Shown: piece by piece, positions 18,838-30,800 of the stretch
How the letters are laid out: every line of letters begins with the position of its first letter
Numbering within the stretch: position 1 is the first letter of the stretch
DNA from: Polyrhizophydium stewartii
Taxonomy: Eukaryota > Chytridiomycota > Chytridiomycetes > Rhizophydiales
Direction: 5' to 3'
NCBI GenBank assembly: GCA_027604665.1
Contig: JADGIZ010000015.1
Span: 1-48,285 of the forward strand
Length of the DNA: 48,285 nt
Notes under the pieces: generated by a model
What the model was told of the DNA's origin: nothing
The model's database searches: none
The model's input: the letters and a program-made list of their open reading frames with translations, nothing else
Program-made: the position numbers and the translations under genes

Positions 18838-21800
18838 TCAATCGCTCAGGCTCAGTAGAGCGGCAACGCCGCGCATGATCCACGTCTCCTCGGGGACCTT
18901 GGTTGGAATGCGCATGGACATGACGTAGTTTGTGCTATGTCTGTTTGCGCCAATGAGCGGTTAGAGTTTTGCGCGCGCAAGTTCGCACTCGGTAGCGGCC
19001 ACCGCATGCAGCACGCCCACAGCATACATACCCTGTTGTTGACAGCGTGCCCCGACGAGCACCGGTCTTGTAGACAGGACAGTCATACGTGTTGGCGAGA
19101 TTGAACTTTGATCGCTCGCCAGGCTTGAGCCAGATGATGGGCATTGCGTCGTAGAGCACGCGCGGGTGCGACTCTGCAATCGACGCCTCTTTGATGTCCC
19201 AGCGCGCGCCTTCGAGGAACAGGCCGTTGACGTGCTGGCCCTCCTCGGGCCGCACGCCTGCCGTGCGAGTCGACTGCACTTGGAACTCAAAGGCCAGCAA
19301 GTCTATCGGGAGTGTGTACTTGCGCGCGTAGTTCTGCAGGCATCCAGTCAGGAAGCTCTGCGTGAAGAAAAAGCCGCTGAGCCAGAACACGATAGGCTGT
19401 CCGTCGTCGATCCACTTGCGGAAGAACTGCAAACGCTGCAAAAGATCGTTGAAGTAGCTGCCGAGAGGCTTCATCGACGGATACGACTTGCTCGCCCACA
19501 TCTTTGGGATGCCGCCGACCAAAAAGCTGGAGCTGAGATCCTCGAGCTCCGACGACATGACGACAAGTCCCTTGATTGCCTTTTGGATGTTCTTCAGGCT
19601 CTCGCGCACGACTTCGGTCAGGTTGCGGAACCGAATCGCCTCCTGCAGTAGCACTGTGTTCATACTCTCGCTATAGCTGACTGGGTATTTTGCAGCGAGT
19701 TTTGCGAGATCAAACGCCTCCGGCAGGCGTGTGAGCATGTCCGACGCGACTTCCGAGATGATCTGCTCGTTTGACTTTGCGCCGCCCGACTCCATCTTTC
19801 CCTGCGTCGAGAGAATGGCCCTAAAGAATGTGTCGGTTTCGAGCTGGTTCCTGGCAATATCGGCGTTGTCATGCAGGCAGAATACTTCAGGCTTCGCCTC
19901 GAGCGGCAGTGTTTTGAGGTACTCGAGGATGCCGGCGTGCGATGTGCTTGAGGGAATGTGATAGATGCCACTTGCCGAGAATTTGAAGTTCTGGAACAGT
20001 TTTGTTATCGACTAGGAGTCAGTGATTTCCGACGCAATCCGATGGCTGCGGCTGACCCGAGGCCGTTCGGCTCGCGCGCCTCTCTTACCTGCTGGATGTT
20101 GATATTCGGCGTATATACTACCGATAGAAGCGTCACCAGCGTGCGCCGGTCCTTGTCGTCAGTCACGCGGCCTCCGTAGTTGCACTGGCCTGTTGTGCGG
20201 GATCGCGTCAGTTGAGCGTTTCGCGCAGTCAATCAAGGAGAGATCCTCAACCCACCTGTCAGATACGCGAGTGCCTCGTATGGCGTCTCCTCATATTCAC
20301 TCAGGAAGTTGCGCAGCTGGCGGGCCGAAATGCGCAGATCTGTGTCGTTGAACTCGTATGGGATATTCCAGCCGATCGGCCCAAACTGTCTGCGCTCCTG
20401 CACGACCGCATGGAAGAAGCAAAGCCCAAGCAGCATGCGCTCAAACTGTGTTTGCTTCTTGCAGCCCTCGTAGAAACTTTTGTCGTTGATTGGGTCGCTC
20501 AGGTAAGACTTGATCAAGTTGGCGCGCAGACCCTTTGGCGGCTCGTTCGTCATCTTGACACCGTTTTGGAGCAGCGACACCGGAAACTTATCCGAAGGAT
20601 ACGACGTGAGCCAAAGCCGAAAGTCGCGGTGCGTATTTTCGGGCGACATCTCCTCGCAAATCTTCTCAAGCTGGGGCATCCAGCTGATCGCCAGGTGGCA
20701 GTTCTGCAGGACGATCCAGGATCCATCGTTGACTGCCGCGTTGATCATTTTGGCAGCAATCGGGCCCTGGCCCTGGCCGAGCGAGATCGAGTTGAGCCGA
20801 TTGCCGCCCATCTTCATGTCCTCGGCGAACCGCAGCAGGCCCGTCATTGGGTCCGCACCTGGCGAGAGCACAAAAATCAAGGGTGCACACGGGTTCGAGT
20901 CGCCGTAGCTGCTCGCCAAATCAAACGGCGGCGGCTCGACGTACTTGTGGCCCATTTTCTCGATAATAAAGCCCGTGATCGCAATCGTCATCTTGTCGGG
21001 CCGCAGACAGCGCAGCACAAGCAGCCGCTCAAACGATGTCAGGGCCATGTGCCATTTGCCTGCATTATTTGCGTCGCGGTTAGGATATGCGGCTGGCGTG
21101 TTTGCGGCGGCTCGTGGAGAGCAGCTCACCGGGGAGATTAAAGTCCTGTGGGTCAGGGCTCTCAAAGAGTCGCTTCCACTCGGCAATGTTCTCATTGAAA
21201 GTCTTGGCAAAGTCGCTGAACGGCTCCATATCAGACAGTCGCACAATCTCGCCCCAGCTTTTCTCGGAGATCCACAGCGGATCGGGGTTTGGCACGGGCG
21301 AGCTGCCGACGCCAACGCCGCCCGTGAGCAGGAAGCGCCACTCGGTTGGATCCACCTCGTTGTTCGCCCGCAGGATCGCCACCGTGAGCATGAACGAGAA
21401 CACAAGCTTGTCCTTCTCAAACAGCGAGCGGCACACGTTGCGGTAAAGCGACTCGGTAAAGTGAGTTCGGAGAGTCTCAAGCCGAATGGCCACATCAGAC
21501 GACTTTTCGCTGTTCTCGATCGAAGCGACAAAGAGGCTGATGTACCAGTTGAGCGAGTACTGGTACATGGGCTCGATATTGCCGAGGTCTGCGATGCAAA
21601 AGAACATGACTGACGAATGCTCGGCAATCGGCTTGTATCCAATGCGGATCTCGTCAATCTTGATCTCGGTCTTTTCTGCGACGGCCTGCTTCTCGCTGAT
21701 GGTCTTGGCGAGGACCTTTGACGACGACAGGACCTGGATACCGGTCTCATCCTCGAGAATGTTTCCTTCGGAGCTGGACAGAACCTCGAGGATCTTGTCT

Positions 21801-24800
21801 TCGATCTCCTGCAGCTGCTTCTTGTTTTCGGCGGACTGCAGCAGTAGCTGTGTCTTCATCTCCTCGAGCTCTGGACGTTCCTTGGCAATGACGATGCCGA
21901 GGAGCTGGTCCTCGAGGCCCTCGGGCGTAATCATGAAGTTGAGCAGCGTGACTTTGGTCGAGAGCTCGGGAAGATAGTGCGGATTGCGCAGCTTCGTGGT
22001 CACGTAGAAGCGAAACTCGGGCGAGTATTCGACGGTAGAGTCGCCCAGGCGGATGCACGTGATGCCACCTTGCTTGAATGTTTGCTTCAGCAAAAGCGGC
22101 TCGAGGACAGGGTCGAGCTCCTCGCCAACGTTCTCGAGAAGCACGGGCGTGCCAAACTGGACTGCGTTCTCGATCGTGCGGATGTAGTCCGAGTCGGTTA
22201 GCTTTATGACTTGAAGTGACTTGGCCTTCTCCATATTTTTGATCCATCGGTTTGCTTGTCCCTGTGGATCGATCATGAGTGGCCAGCGACGCGCGTTTGA
22301 TATCACGATGCCGTTGTCGATTGAGAACGAGTCGTTTGGCAGTCCCGCGAGCGTCCACGCGCGCGCCTTGACTGGCTCTCCAAGGACATTGAAAAGCCGG
22401 ATATCATCCGAACACGGGATGTTGCGCTGCTTGCACAGGCGCGACCAGTCGGCCACGCACTCGTCGCGAAACAGCTTTGTGAAAGCGCCGAGGTAGGCGA
22501 CAATGCCCGATGACACGAGCACGTCGCCGGTCAGCGACGTGAACTTGATTTCAAGGTCTGCCGCGCACTGCGTCCACCGATCGCGCTCGTCGCCAAGACT
22601 GCCAATGAGCTTCTCTGCGCGCACGAGCTGCTTCGAGACAGAATCAACCTGGTGCTCAAGATCCTCCTTCTTTTGCACCATTGCCCGAAAGTTGGCTTCG
22701 AGCTTGGCCATGCGGTCCTCGACGGCCTTGAGCGTCGCGCGCTTCTCGTTGAGGCTGGCCATGGTCTCAGCAAGCTCGGACTCGGCCTTTGCGAGCGCCT
22801 CCTTTTTTGGCGCAACGACCTTGGCCACACGATCGTAGCACTCCATGGCGCGCACCCAGCGGCACAGGCCCTCGGCGGCCGACGAAGCCGTCTTGATCTT
22901 CTCGGGATCAAACTCGGGGTTATCCATGTACTTTGAGCGGATAATTTTCATGATCGCGGGCGAGATGTTGTCCTTGTCGTATGCCTTGAGGTTGTCGAGG
23001 AACTTCATGTCGGACATGAGTGTCTTGGATGGTCCCCAAAAGTCCTCGATCTTCTTGCCGGACCCGGCTGGGTCGGGGATCTTGACTGGCTTGACGTCCT
23101 TCATGACACACACCGCCTCCATGACGAGCTTGACACCAGCAGGCGGGCTTTTCATGGACTTGAGTACGGTAATGTCCGCAGGCTTGAGGGTGTCGAGCGC
23201 CTGGACAGCCGACTCAAGCGCCGGAATCGCCTCTGCAAGCTGTGCTTCGCAATCGTCCTTGATGGCCTTGGCTTCTGACGCCTTCTTGCTCGCAACCTCC
23301 TCGTCGGCTTGCACGATAGTCTTGGTGGCCTGCACCTCCTTTGACTCCTTCTCGATCTGGACCATGATCTGATCGGTCTCGTGCTTGGTCTTGATCAGCT
23401 GCGGCTGCAGCTCGCCGAGATCAACCTGCATCTTGGACACGGCGCCCTGGGCAAAATTGAGTTTCTCGAGGCCGTTGACGTACCGGAACTTGAGCTTGGA
23501 GACGGCTGTGCGCTTGAGTCCAAGCAGCGACTTGAACGTGCGGATCAGCTCCAGATACGACGTCGGAGTGACGTAGTTGTAGCGTCGCAGAAGCGACATG
23601 AACTTGGCCGACTGCTTCTGCGTGCTTTCGTGCATGTGCTTGCACATCTGGACAACCTCCCTGCGCACCATGTCGTCCATGTCGACATCACGCAAGAACT
23701 TGCTGGCAACCATTTCGAGCGCGTCGTTCGGCCAGTCTTTGAACCAGTCGATTGTGCAGCAGTTGATGAGTGACGGGAACTTTCGCAGGCGGTTGCGAAA
23801 CGCCTCGCCCACAGGGCTCATGCACAAGCAGACGTGCAGGTTCTCTCGGCAGCGATCAACAAAAACGCCAAACATGTACGTCGGGGTCCCCTCAAAGGAC
23901 TTTCCAGAGCTCTTGAGGTCGTTTCGGATCAGTTCAAAGAGCTCCTGCTTCTCGTCTGGCGCGTAGAGGTTGGGCACCTCGCCCGAGTTCAGGATGTTGC
24001 TGATGTCCTCGAGGAACGACTCTTGCTGAATCTGTGTGTCGCTGAACAGAAACACGGTCTGCTTGCCCTGCCCGCCAGCAATCTTGAAGACCTTTTTGAG
24101 GTCGTCGTGCCAATTACTGACATTGTAGTTTTTCGCAATCTCGACCTGGATCAGATCGTACTCGGCTACATATGCAGCCATGCGCGAGAGAGACTGCCTG
24201 CCACTGCCACCGACGCCGACGAGAAGTATGTTTCCGCGCGGCTGCTGCAGCACGCGGCTGATGCGCGAAAGATGCTCGATAGCGAACCGGAACATGACAA
24301 GGTCCATCGGTTTCTTGCTTATCTGGTTGTACTCGGTCAGGCATCTGTCCATGAAGGAAGTCAGCTCGCCCAAATCCGCGATTTCGTTGTAGGCCTTTCC
24401 AGATGCCTCGCGCGGCGAGAGATAGGTGGCGAAAATGAGGCTGCGCAGGTCTTCTTCCGTGACCTTGCCATCCGCGTCGCCATCGTAGGTGCGGAAGACG
24501 GTGTTGAAGTCGGCCTCGAAAGCCTGCGAAACGACTTTCTTGGAGTAGTCGAAAAGCCATCGCCGGTCGTCGTCGTCAATGAGACGGTCGTAAAAGACAC
24601 GGAACTGCTCGTGGAGCCACAGACGGATCATTTTGTGTGGCTCGCTGACGGTGTCGGGGCGTGACAAGAGCACGCCTTGGATCACTCGAGCAAAGTCGCG
24701 CAGATTGAATGTGTAGTGCGACTTCTTGGGCGTCGGCAGCAAGCTCGCCATTGCGCCGCGGTAGATTTCCTTGGTGGCCCCAACAACCTGGCGGAACATG

Positions 24801-27800
24801 GCAGAAATGGGTTTTGGGAAGCCGTTTGTGGTCAGGTGCCACTCGAGGATCGTCTCGAATATCTTGTGAAGCGTGAGATCGTCGAATGGCGTGACTGAAA
24901 TGGTGTTGAAGTGGCGGAGGAACTATTCGCGCAGGATTCGGTAAGTTTGAGGTGGCCGGTGGTGTGCGGCAGACAGTTGTCGCGTTGCTTACCCTTGGGG
25001 TGACAGGGTTGCGGCCTCCGCCTGGAGGACCCATGGCGCCGATGAACTGAATATCAATGATCTCTTGCATCGAGTTCTCCGTCAAGTTGTACCACCCGCC
25101 ATGATCCATCCACTGGCGTAAAAGCTCAATGGGTGGCTGTGCGCCATACTGCTCACGCGCAGGCATGTTGAGATCGTCGACAAAGATTAGACAGCGCTTG
25201 CCGAGGGGTGGACCAAAGACACCTTTGCGCCGCTTGTCCAGCTTCGACTCGAGGATCTCCTGGGTCTGCAACGCCGATGTCTGGGCCGAGAAGTTGATGA
25301 ACACGGGTATGTAGACGTCCTTGGCCATTCCGTTCATCAGCGTATCGCGGACGTACATCGACTTGCCTGTGCCAGTGGGCCCAACAAAAAGGATTTGCTT
25401 GTTGTTGCGCGCAAGTAACTTGAGGAGGTACGAGTAGCGCGCCGTGTCAACCGTCGGCACCATGATGTTGTCATATTTTGTCTTTGGCGCGATGGCGTAG
25501 TTGCCTGGGAGCGTGTCAAGCCAGTTGCGCCAGACGTTGCCATTGACGTGGTCAAAGAGGTAGTCGTAGACCATGCCGTCCGCCGGCAGCGCCACCTCGA
25601 CCTCAAAGGCAGCGGGCTTTGGCACATCAGCCGAACCCGAGAGCAGCGTGCGCAGAAATGTGCTAAACTTTGGCCTTCCAGCCTCATTAACGCTGCCACC
25701 AAGAGCCCAAATGACCGCGAAAACGCAACAGCCCTGGATTGACTTGGGCGTGAGCTCAACCGAGCGGCCCGAAGGCGCCTCCTTGAAGAGACTGTCCATG
25801 ATGTTCAACGCCGACACAATGAGGTTGATATCACTTGTCTCGGAGATCTCGACGCAGTCGTTACGGACGAGACGAAGACATGGCGGGCAAAGCCAATCCA
25901 TGACGGCGCAGAGAAGCTTCTTTTGCTCGTCGTCGAGTGCGTCCTGCTTGTTCATCCAAGACGTGACGATTGTGTCGCGCCAGCCGAGGCGGGAAGGCTC
26001 CATGTATATCATGCCGCAACGCGACACTGTCGCCGGGGATGCCACGGCAAGATCGCGCACCTCAAAGACCATACTCATCGAGCTCGAAAGCTGAATGATC
26101 TCGCCGCTGTTGAGGCAAAGCTTCTTGTTGTCGTCAAGCACCGTGTTCATGTTCTCGATCCAAATGGCGTCCACAGGCCCATCAAAGATGACCCACTTGC
26201 GGTCAGGCGTTGGCTGCGACGCAAAGTTGCGGAAGCCGAGGGCCAAAACACCATCGGTCCATTCGTGGGTGACTGGATCAAACTGGCCATACAGCTGGCC
26301 CATCGTGATCGATTTGGGATTGAGAACCTGCGTCTGAACCTTGGACTCCTGCGACGGATTGGCCTTGTTGATGTCGGTTAGAGCGCCTTGCAGCACCCGG
26401 TACGCCGCCGTCTTTCCGGCAAACGGCTCTCCGACGATCATGAATCCGTGCCGCACCTGCGCAGCCGGGCTCAGAATCGTGGCGCATAGGGCATCAAGCT
26501 GCGTCTTGCCTCACCTGAACCATCTCGTAGATCTGCAACACTTTTTCGCAGAACGGAGCGACGTTCTGCAAGTTCATCTTGTCGCAATTGCTCTGGATGC
26601 TTTTGATAAGAACCCCGTAGTCCGGCGTTGGCAAAGTCACACCGGGGAACAAGTCTGCGGTGATGCCCTTGAAGAGGGGAATGTCTTGAGACAAAAACTT
26701 TGCCAAGTTCACATCCATAATCGAGCGCAGAACTAGGACGTTCTCGTTTTCGTTTGGATATCGCAGCTTGAGTGCGCCGCACGCGTTGAGCACCGACTTG
26801 ACGGCACGCATGCCGTAGTCGTAGTGATCCTGTGACGAGAGCTGCTCCGAGCACAGGCGATACGTTGCAGTGATTTTGACGGCAAGGCTGCGCGCCTGTA
26901 CAAAACCAAACGAGTACAGCGAGATCTCGGCGATTAGTGTGTAGTCGGGCACCATCATCGCCACCGGCCGGAACAGCGCCTTCAGGTTGTCGGGCAGCTC
27001 AGAGCGACCGGCGTATCCTGGGTTCATGGTGATGAATATCGCGCAGTACGGATTGAGGTTCAGCTCAGTGCCTTCAAACACAAACGTTTCGAGCTTCGCC
27101 ATTTTCGCTCGCTGGATCGTCAGGACCTGCTGCGCAACAACCGAAAGCACCTCGAGGTCGATGCGGTTGAACTCGTCAAAGCATGCCCAAGCACCCGATG
27201 CGGCCAAGCCCTTGAAGAACTTGCCCATGGCGATATAGTCGAGGCCGTCCGAGCAGTTGAACACAACGCAAAGATAAGCCAACGCCTTGGCGAGGTCCTT
27301 TGTCGTCTCGGTGTTGTGCGTCACGGTGTAGTCCTGGAGCAGGCAGCGGCCGTCGCGGCCGTCGAGCGAGAAGCCAAAGTAGTTGTCGATGCCGACGCAT
27401 TCGATCGTGAAGCCAAAGCACGGGTCGGTGCTCTGTGCGCTCGATGCAGGCTCCGCGACAGCGCTGCGCTTGTCGTCGGTCACAATGTGCTCGGCAACAG
27501 CCGCGAGGCCCGCACCGCGGACCGCGATGGATGCGTGCTCGTGCGACTTTCCGACGACGAGACCGAGGCCGCGAGCCAGGCTCGCCGCATCAGTCAGGAT
27601 GCCTGCCGATGCACATGTGATCGTGCAGCCGCCGTCCTCGCCAATGTGTCCGCAGCAGTCGACGAGTCCGGCCAGCAACGCACGGCGCACCGTCGGGCAC
27701 TCGGTCATCAGCTCGCCCGGGACGTGCGTGGCCTGGGCCAACCCGTACGATCCAAGCAATGTCGAGAATCCCGACCCGCACTTCCCCGGCATGCGCTCGC

Positions 27801-30800
27801 CGAGCATCGCCGCGATGCGGTCAAACTCCGAGTGCACTTGCTCGCAAGTCTCGAGGCAGCCGGAACCAGCGCTCAGCGCCAGGCATGCGCCGATGGCCCA
27901 TGCGACCTGGGCGACAATGGCGAGCGACGCCTCTGCACCGCGCATCTCGCTGATCCTCGCAGTGAGCGAGACGGCCGGCGACGGCCACTCGATCAGCGGC
28001 GACTGGAACATGGCCAGTGACCGCTGCAGCGACTCGTCCTTGATAGCAAGGTAATCGACGACGGTGCACTCGAACACGAGCGGCTGCCGCGCGGTGCGCA
28101 CAAGCTCGTCGATGAACGCTTCGGCGTCGTCGCGGGTCGCGAATGCACCGCCAACGAGATCCGCACACGGGATCTGCGAGACGGCGCTCGTGCCGGGCCG
28201 CGTCGTCCACGTCTTGACGAAGAACCGGCCGCCAGCAGCAACAACGGTTGGCTTGGCGTTGAGCTGCAGCACGAGGATGTGCGGGCCGTTGCAAGTCCAC
28301 GAAATGCGGGCGTCGTCAGTCGCCTTGACGCGGTACATGGCCTCGGTGCCGCGCGTGATGGAACCGGGCCGCACGATGCGCGGCTGCGAGTCCGGCCCCA
28401 TGAGTATGTCGCCCTCGCGGATCTCCTCGACCGCCTTGGCCGTGCCGTCGAGCATGACCAGCCGCGTGCCGCGGCCCCAGCATTTGCCCGTTCCTGGACC
28501 GGTGGTCAGCTCAAATGCGTTGACAAGTACACTGCAGGCACATCAGCTCACCAGCGGGGCCTTCTGGAGCTCCGCCGAGATAGAGCTGCAGCGCACCAAA
28601 AAGCGTGCGATAACAGCGGTCCGTGAGCGGCGTGATGACGAGACGGCCCGTGTTGCCGAGGTACTCGTAGCCGTACTTTTGCACCGAATTTATCATCTTC
28701 ACGATGACACCAGATTCCTTGTCCGGGAAATAGTAGCGCAGTTGCGACAGCCAGCCAAAGTCGTTGATCGACGACACCTTTGCATCATCAAGCTGCTCAA
28801 CAACGTCGCGAGCGTGCACGTCGATCTGCATCAGGTGCGTAAGTCGCAACGCTTGATGTGCAAGTACCGCCTCATGTCACCTCACCACAACAAGCGCCTC
28901 GAGGGTCGTGCGCGCAAGGCGAGTCAGATTGCCGCGGACTAGCTCAACCACTTTGGAGAGGCGCTCGGTGCTGAGCTCGACGTAGCGCTTGAGGCCATTT
29001 GCGCGGCCCTCAAGGATCGTGAACTCTACCTCTTTGGTCCAGTAAATCTGACTGACGCCAAGCACGACCTGTCCAGGCCAGTTGACGACCCATTTTTCAC
29101 GTGGCGTGTCCTTGTAGTTTTCAAATGCAAGCGCAGTCACATGACGCATGCTCGCCAGCATCGCCTTTTCAACGTCGAGCAACCACTTTTCGACTGCGCC
29201 GGCAGCTTCTGCAGTCGAAATGGTCGTCGTGAACTTGATGAACTCTTTTTGCGCACTATACATGCCGGTGATATCCTGGTTTGGCTCGAACTCGAGACTG
29301 TTAATGCCCTCGAAGCATTTCTTGAGGTGCGGCTGCACGCGCGTTGGGTCGCGCGTCTCTGACAGGATCTCAAGCATTTCGTCGTTGGACAGGAAAAAGA
29401 AGCGCGGGAAGAACAGGCGCTTGATCTCGAGGTACTGGTTGAGCCCTTTCTGAATGAGTTCGAGCTCCTCGTTGCTGTCCTTGAGGCGCTGCAGCAGATC
29501 AGGCATCTCGCACACTTTCTGCACGTGCTTGTCGAGCGAGCAGTGGATCATGATATCTTTCCACGTCTTGTTGACCGAAATGAAGCGTTTCCCCTCGGAG
29601 GGCATCTGGCGCATGATGTCCTCGGAGCTGAAGATGGGCTCAAGATAGAGCCAAGTGGCTTGCACCTTGAGCCACTCGTCGAGGATCTCTTGGATGAGCA
29701 TCAGCTTCGAGTCCCAGCCGCGGGTCTCCTCGTCAAACGCCTTGATGAAGGGCGAGCCGCGCATCGTCTGCGTCTTGACAATGTGGTCGTCAAGCAGAGT
29801 TTGAATATCGTCAACACCTGCGAGGATTTGCGTGCCGGTGTCACGGTAGTCGATTGTGACAAACTCGACATCTTTCCACTCCGAGTACATCTTTTGCAGC
29901 GCCTTTTCGAAAGAGAACTCCTTGGTTGCGACGGCCGAGATTTGCTCGAGGGCCTCCATGTACTGCCCCAGGTTGCGCTCGAGCACAGCAGACAGGCTGG
30001 TCGACTCGTCGGGCTGGAAGCGAAAGCCCACAACCTGGGAAATATCTTTCCAGTGCCTGTCTCGCAGGCCGGGATTGCAGAGGGTGCTGATCAGCGGCAG
30101 GTGCACCTTGAACCGCTCGATCTGCTCCTTGGTGATTTGCGCAAAATCGTATGGAGCCGAGTCCGCAGCGAACGTGAGAGTGAGCTTGTAGATGTTGCGC
30201 CACATGGTCGTAACGTCGTTCTCGACGCTCTCGGGCTCCAGCTTGAGGAAGGGCCCCGTCATCCACGTGTGGTAGCATCGTTGGAAATCGACCGATGTCT
30301 GGTAGAGCGTGAGGAATGGCGACAGACCCTCCATCGCACCGGATAGCGCCGTGAATCGCGTCGTCTCCCATCCAAACAACTCCTCCTCGTGGTTAAAGCC
30401 TGCAATGCGCTCAGCAATCGAATCAAGACGCGACTGCAACTTCTGAGCAGCTTTAAGGTACTTGTTGATCTCTGAGTAGTCACCAAAGCTGTAGTACTCT
30501 TCGATCTGCTTGGAGTAGCCCTCCAGCTCCGTGAGAAGCTTTTCCTTCCGCGCCTTGAGGTCGTCCTGGTTGCTGGCGCGCGACTTTAGAAGATTGCTCT
30601 CGCCCTCCCCGAAAATAGGCCCAATCTTTTGCGGCCACGTAAAGAGCACCGTGTTCATGTCAAAATCCTCGCGCTTGAGCTCCGAGAACGTAATCATGAA
30701 ATTCAGCCTCCGCAACAGGTGTCAGTAAACTGACCCGGATTCCCACGACAGAGTGAGCACGCCTACTTCTTCTTGGCCTCGTCAACAGCCTCCTCAAGAG

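Follow-up and report, generated by a model that had tools for sequence, protein, structure and literature searches.

Inteins with a companion intron in the ATP-binding loop of flagellar dynein heavy chains of the chytrid Polyrhizophydium stewartii

Can the catalytic ATP site of a flagellar motor be split by an intein and, if so, how did the element get there? The question is raised by a 48,285-nt stretch of the genome of the chytrid Polyrhizophydium stewartii (GenBank assembly GCA_027604665.1, contig JADGIZ010000015.1, positions 1 to 48,285; hereinafter, the window), in which a first-pass annotation, made from the letters alone, had noticed an open insertion of 390 codons (27313..28482) in a dynein heavy chain gene and read it as an intein between Lys and Thr of the AAA1 Walker A motif (P-loop). 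The insertion is real and the intein stands, but the picture of a single insertion was incomplete: the genome has eight such inteins, distributed among seven heavy chain genes, and a 58-nt intron accompanies each of them. We consider it probable (roughly 0.86) that a Walker A intein entered a flagellar dynein and, with the 58-nt intron and 11 nt of the P-loop alongside, was subsequently copied among the heavy chains of this fungus.

An intein within the AAA1 P-loop

The insertion matches the Hint profile PF05203 (E 3.2e-17), the kind of profile with which the first-pass annotation had proposed to search, and the homing endonuclease domain PF05204 (E 7.9e-08), both with values better than the curated cut-offs; a search of NCBIfam gave no match to it. 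The predicted protein has the Hint fold and the class 1 layout, and the residues expected to carry out splicing, namely Cys1, block-B His68, His389, Asn390 and the +1 Thr, are invariant in all eight copies. Profile, fold and terminal residues thus bear out the intein identity, and the profiles and fold rule out a chance open frame. Removal of the intein, together with the RNA intron, restores GPAGTGK+TE at 7/7 AAA1 loci and GPTGTGK+TK at the AAA2 site.

The host gene has the parts of an axonemal heavy chain: Pfam matches across it include the linker, six AAA domains (AAA2 being recognized as AAA_5 plus reading of the sequence), the stalk and the C-terminal domain. Among solved structures, its AAA4-AAA5 region is closest to DNAH7 (1661.8 bits), followed by DNAH12 (1623.4 bits), which agrees with the proposed placement of the insertion in a flagellar dynein, at the Walker A of AAA1.

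Eight copies in seven heavy chains

Across the 12.86 Mb assembly (690 contigs), protein and profile searches agree on eight intein copies. The AAA1 family, AAA_6, accounts for 24 matches at 13 loci, seven of which carry the intein in AAA1; no two of these dyneins are the same, and no two share a contig. The eighth intein occupies AAA2 of one of these hosts (C59), between Lys and Thr of GPTGTGK/TKC. Identity to the window copy is 87-89% for the six other AAA1 inteins and 41% for the AAA2 intein; all eight are free of internal stops.

Typing by best solved match covered nine of the 13 AAA_6 loci, all but C123, C267, C7 and C45. The window gene (C15) and C106 are closest to DNAH7/12, C74 to DNAH3/12/7, C49 to DNAH6, C246 to the Chlamydomonas-type record DHC2 and then DNAH1, and C169 to DNAH17 and then DNAH9; for C59, the first-ranked solved record carries an unrelated name and DNAH5 comes second. 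The host motor parts that were searched match solved axonemal dyneins with 462 to 1662 bits. From the DNAH names, we take C169 and C59 to be outer-arm types and the other five hosts to be single-headed inner-arm types. The AAA1 site is empty in C27 (DNAH10-like), C19 (DNAH2-like), C123, C267 and the divergent C7 and C45. C123 and C267 share a joint branch in the tree and, judging from this and their motifs, are presumably cytoplasmic-like. C7 (L052) and C45 (L053) are divergent AAA1-like loci with the atypical P-loops GPVSVGKTE and GQGGSGKTA. The genome also contains a match to a radial spoke gene (control, 0/14 genomes) and strong chitin synthase matches, for which the control was also positive in 4/14 genomes; both fit a fungus with flagella.

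The companion intron and the limits of the shared block

Upstream of each intein lies a predicted spliceosomal-type intron of 58 nt with a branch-like CTGAC motif, retention of which would bring a stop before the P-loop at all eight loci. The sequence of this intron was found eight times in the genome (up to 3 mismatches; reversed control, 0), always 11 nt before an intein, and the same search recovered no copy without an intein. Since the intron ends 11 nt before the intein, the Walker A motif would be rebuilt by removal of an RNA intron and, four codons farther along, of a protein insert. The 10-mer GAACGGGCAA of the P-loop is common to all eight copies, and none of the four canonical AAA1 sites that are empty has it.

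Divergence was assessed for the seven AAA1 copies (21 pairs), with the AAA2 copy treated apart. The mean intron distance (0.166) is close to the intein dS (0.170). Joint copying of the two, with free drift of the intron, would give such a match, which indicates that intron and intein are of equal age. Differences are seen at 179/1218 sites in the intron and in 587/4561 fourfold comparisons in the intein. In the flanking exons, the fourfold differences amount to 88/150 in the last 30 nt upstream, 25/88 in the first 30 nt downstream of the intein and 141/305 in the first 150 nt downstream. Because divergence jumps in both flanking exons, the shared block can be placed, from these comparisons, as starting at or close to the 5' splice site of the intron and extending to the end of the intein or slightly beyond. 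In their last 60 nt, the seven AAA1 inteins are unusually alike (6/220 fourfold differences versus 587/4561 overall), pointing to homogenization of the 3' end or to constraint at the DNA level.

The AAA2 copy has a composite structure. The intron of C59 AAA2 differs from that of C169 at 2/58 sites (3.4%), and the first 20 codons of the AAA2 intein differ from C169 at 1/60 nt and 0/12 fourfold sites. Farther along, the fourfold differences are 4/8, 2/12, 11/16, 11/18, 12/20, 3/4 and 3/9, and those at the nucleotide level rise from 8/48 through 43/120 to about half. Given that near-identity to C169 is confined to the intron and the beginning of the intein, the 5' end of the AAA2 copy was exchanged with an AAA1-type copy, although the border is not sharp. 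Ten further heavy chains keep an unbroken AAA2 P-loop (C49, C246, C106, C74, C169, C27, C123, C267, C19 and C15; judged by the position of the second P-loop in C27, C123, C267 and C19), so the intron at C59 AAA2 was gained together with the intein.

Decay of the endonuclease and constraint on the splicing parts

None of the eight copies retains the two catalytic aspartates of a LAGLIDADG homing intein: the first position is Leu (Arg in the AAA2 copy) and the second is Ser, Cys, Arg or Ala. This loss at both positions rules out active homing at present. By contrast, three relatives chosen for intact motifs (P0003, P0005 and P0009) have Asp at both positions. The loss is not peculiar to the dynein inteins, given that, in the wider alignment, P0004, P0006 and P0007 also lack Asp at one or both positions, whereas P0008 and P0010 lack the endonuclease region altogether. 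The seven AAA1 inteins are nonetheless under selection as proteins, with an overall dN/dS of 0.29 and values of 0.17 for the N-terminal Hint part (HintN, residues 1-85) and 0.12 for residues 86-150.

A possible route of spread

Inteins at the Lys/Thr-Ser site of P-loop ATPases form a lineage from which one member would have entered a dynein heavy chain of this flagellated fungus. A cassette consisting of the intron, the 11-nt P-loop piece and the intein would then have reached the AAA1 P-loops of seven axonemal heavy chains by copying, and a copy recombined with a more distant intein would have come to lie in AAA2 of one of them. Repair of breaks, or gene conversion, with P-loop sequences as partners could have mediated the copying; the intron would have been carried along because, in the donor, it lies only 11 nt away and pairing would resume only beyond it. 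Early copies were perhaps driven by an endonuclease that was then active. As the present copies lack the catalytic residues, either the copying outlived the endonuclease or the copies were homogenized later.

In each host, excision of the RNA intron, followed by that of the protein insert, would rebuild GPxGTGK-T. Translation of the spliced mRNA would yield a precursor dynein with a Hint domain in its P-loop. As in class 1 inteins in general, attack by Cys1, transfer to the +1 Thr, cyclization of Asn390 and ligation would then restore GPAGTGKT. We infer that this protein splicing occurs, that the catalytic site of AAA1 would be unable to bind ATP before it, and hence that most flagellar motors of this fungus probably cannot work until the intein excises itself. 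Because the P-loop is split, dependence of flagellar motility on splicing, as the first-pass annotation had held, is likely. With seven heavy chains of both outer-arm and single-headed inner-arm types hit in the catalytic ATP loop, the movement of an organelle would rest on protein splicing. Moreover, the cassette offers a concrete route for spliceosomal intron gain, whereby an intron beside an intein site is copied along.

Several observations weigh against this reading. The loss of catalytic residues in all copies fits poorly with simple recent homing, so that another copying route, or later homogenization, must be assumed. The dN/dS of the C-terminal Hint part (HintC, 0.34) is not lower than that of the endonuclease region (0.36), and constraint is therefore clear in the N-terminal half but moderate at the C-terminal end. 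The AAA2 copy lacks a clean recombination border, and the intron and intein trees are not identical, suggesting later exchange among copies. Finally, in the empty DNAH10-like gene C27 (L048), the same phase-1 Gly position is interrupted by a 77-nt intron that differs in sequence from the cassette introns and has no intein beside it; the AAA1 intron site may thus predate the intein, and not every one of the seven AAA1 introns has to be a gain. A part of this C27 intron aligns with the C169 intron with a score that only 4/300 shuffles equal, which would be compatible with distant kinship, whereas 115/300 and 108/300 shuffles reach the scores against the C15 and C49 introns, respectively.

Some of these observations lend themselves to a different history, in which the AAA1 P-loop intron is ancestral, the intein arrived separately and later gene conversion among paralogs homogenized both, with no composite cassette involved. 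The C27 intron suits such a history, and the tree mismatch together with the alike 3' ends of the AAA1 inteins makes conversion among copies likely to some degree. However, conversion should spill into the flanking exons, yet the upstream exons differ strongly right up to the intron; the same intron occurs at C59 AAA2, a site that is unbroken in ten other chains; and the 58-nt intron never turned up apart from an intein. We therefore regard this history as unlikely, although less so than the alternatives that follow.

The first-pass annotation had gone further and supposed that conditional splicing could gate flagellar assembly. Simultaneous splicing in many axonemal heavy chains could, in principle, switch zoospore motility on, and the inteins would then be regulators. 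All seven hosts resemble axonemal heavy chains most, the intein splits the catalytic ATP loop, and conditional splicing is described for other inteins (for example, in the abstracts of PMC6195587 and PMC5790916). Nevertheless, the DNAH2- and DNAH10-like chains lack the intein and a selfish explanation requires no benefit. The pattern of hosts proves nothing because, with 7/11 canonical chains hit, the chance of sparing any given two is about 0.11. Regulation by these inteins is speculation, and we consider it doubtful. Equally tentative is the most far-reaching form of the cassette reading, namely that the composite of intron, P-loop stub and intein is a mobile unit that passes by self-copying from one Walker A site of this motor family to another in the absence of endonuclease activity, creates new introns in the process and places outer-arm and single-headed inner-arm dyneins under common splicing control, such that motility starts only when splicing is allowed.

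It is improbable that the copies are parasites in decay, residing in genes that an organism on its way to losing motility has ceased to need. The catalytic residues are indeed gone and the endonuclease region evolves faster than HintN, but the eight inteins remain stop-free with every splicing residue in place, the host motor parts that were searched still match solved axonemal dyneins well, and a radial spoke gene is present. Finally, there is hardly any chance that an assembly artefact, or an intron (retained or spliceosomal), has been mistaken here for an intein: the segment has the ends TGC...AAC and not GT...AG, its excision along with the real intron would delete the Thr-Gly-Lys encoded between the two, making its removal from RNA unlikely, and its Hint domain is under purifying selection in seven copies in different dyneins on separate contigs.

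Relatives and possible source

Among 5.8 billion proteins, a single-sequence search produced 8 matches and a profile search 19, none of which bears a dynein Pfam label (in both searches, the best 8000 or 7999 candidates by shared words were scored). The hosts of these relatives are DnaB and ResIII helicases, an ABC ATPase, AAA_22 and clamp-loader-like proteins. In the 18 of 22 relatives that could be parsed, the insertion lies between GK and T or S in 16, between AK and S in one and before SGK in one. An insertion between Lys and Thr is what a passage of PMC5050341 calls the 'classic' P-loop insertion.

The viral set comprised 79 of the best 80 of 419 confirmed loci (L056-L135), found with patterns that favoured TVTHN ends; L121, the match of which begins at residue 8, was left out. 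Viral Walker A inteins fall mainly at two sites three residues apart, between GK and T or S (56/79) and before Gly-Lys preceded by Thr, Ser or Cys (15/79). Five of the others have SK, AK or HK followed by T, one is cut off ahead of K and two lie elsewhere. Among the matches listed from a viral structure library are giant-virus helicases and a packaging ATPase. A scan of bacterial and archaeal genomes with two peptide patterns returned 126 stretches, with no relative confirmed. From the hosts and sites of these relatives, we infer that the dynein intein entered from a virus or a bacterium carrying a Walker A intein.

Comparison with known inteins and introns

The dynein inteins share with Walker A inteins of phages, other viruses and bacteria (e.g. 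TerL1-a) the Lys/Thr-Ser site, Cys1, the TVTHN end, the +1 Thr/Ser and the Hom_end_hint profile. They differ in residing in a eukaryotic cytoskeletal motor in eight copies per genome, in lacking the catalytic endonuclease residues and in being coupled to a spliceosomal intron. The fungal VMA1 intein (PI-SceI) occupies a single host gene and has an active endonuclease in yeast; unlike for the dynein inteins, no companion intron is described for it in the literature covered. Introner elements are several near-identical spliceosomal introns of one sequence per genome. The 58-nt introns resemble them in near-identity, but only eight were found, all beside dynein Walker A inteins; the dispersal in many unrelated genes typical of an introner family is not seen, and we rejected this assignment. 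For the GLT1 and CHS2 inteins of fungi, transfer between nuclear genes within a genome has been deduced from an average similarity above 50%, as stated in the main text of PMC5784728. These inteins likewise spread within a genome; the dynein case differs in the number of copies (eight), the restriction to homologous P-loops of one paralog family and the hitchhiking intron.

The most common nuclear inteins tabulated in PMC5784728, a survey of eukaryotic inteins from 2018, are those of Prp8, VMA1, RNA polymerases, ThrRS, GLT, CHS and IF2/eIF5B; dynein is not in this table and the word does not occur in the main text of that article. Among the titles and abstract beginnings listed by searches of open-licence papers, there is likewise no report of dynein as an intein host, and the suggestion that this is a new host accordingly holds within these sources. 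Overall, a known kind of element is found here in a new host family and with a new companion.

Organization of the window gene

The features of the window gene are collected in Table 1. A separate putative intron ends about 8 codons upstream of its AAA2 P-loop.

Table 1. Intein, companion intron and host gene features in the window
Feature	Positions	Strand	Remarks
Intein	27313..28482	-	390 aa; class 1 layout: Cys1, block-B His68, block-G His389-Asn390, +1 Thr
N-terminal Hint (splicing) part	28228..28482	-	approximately residues 1-85
Degenerate LAGLIDADG homing endonuclease region	27463..28032	-	approximately residues 151-340; Leu and Cys at the catalytic Asp positions
C-terminal Hint part	27313..27462	-	approximately residues 341-390
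58-nt spliceosomal-type intron	28494..28551	-	predicted from sequence; GTGAGC...CTGAC...CAG; phase 1 in the Gly codon of GPAG
11-nt exon piece GAACGGGCAAA	28483..28493	-	end of Gly, then Thr-Gly-Lys of Walker A; would be copied with the cassette
End of upstream exon	28552..28561	-	Gly-Pro-Ala and first base of Gly; left edge of shared sequence
N-extein	28880..30715	-	dynein linker/tail region DHC_N2, E 1.7e-147
C-extein	26497..27312	-	remainder of AAA1, PF12774, E 1.6e-119
AAA2-AAA3 exon	24579..26456	-	AAA_5, AAA_7; AAA2 P-loop GEPFAGKT uninterrupted
AAA4, stalk, AAA5	21083..24799	-	best solved match DNAH7
AAA6 region	20236..21750	-	Dynein_heavy D6, AAA_lid_11
C-terminal domain	18938..19795	-	Dynein_C

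Other intein-like sequences in the genome

Apart from the eight dynein copies, the only Hom_end match in the genome is in C180. At approximately 12.2-14.2 kb on the minus strand of C180 (L136), a sequence that reads as a PRP8 intein, with the endonuclease motif LAGLVDSDG and no adjacent 58-nt intron, lies between extein parts within a single open frame of 1266 codons; we take its extein to be PRP8, a known host. At approximately 10.0-11.3 kb on the minus strand of C356 (L054, L055), there are weak Intein_splicing matches (24.9 and 20.7 bits, below the cut-off) in what reads as the largest subunit of RNA polymerase II, with the heptad tail present. This insertion begins after TLN and ends with Arg-Asp before TFHYAG, an unusual end for an intein. 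Lastly, positions 1500-4000 of C98 (L137) hold a LAGLIDADG_3 open frame containing two tandem copies of one unit; it probably represents either the endonuclease of a mitochondrial intron or a duplication in the assembly.

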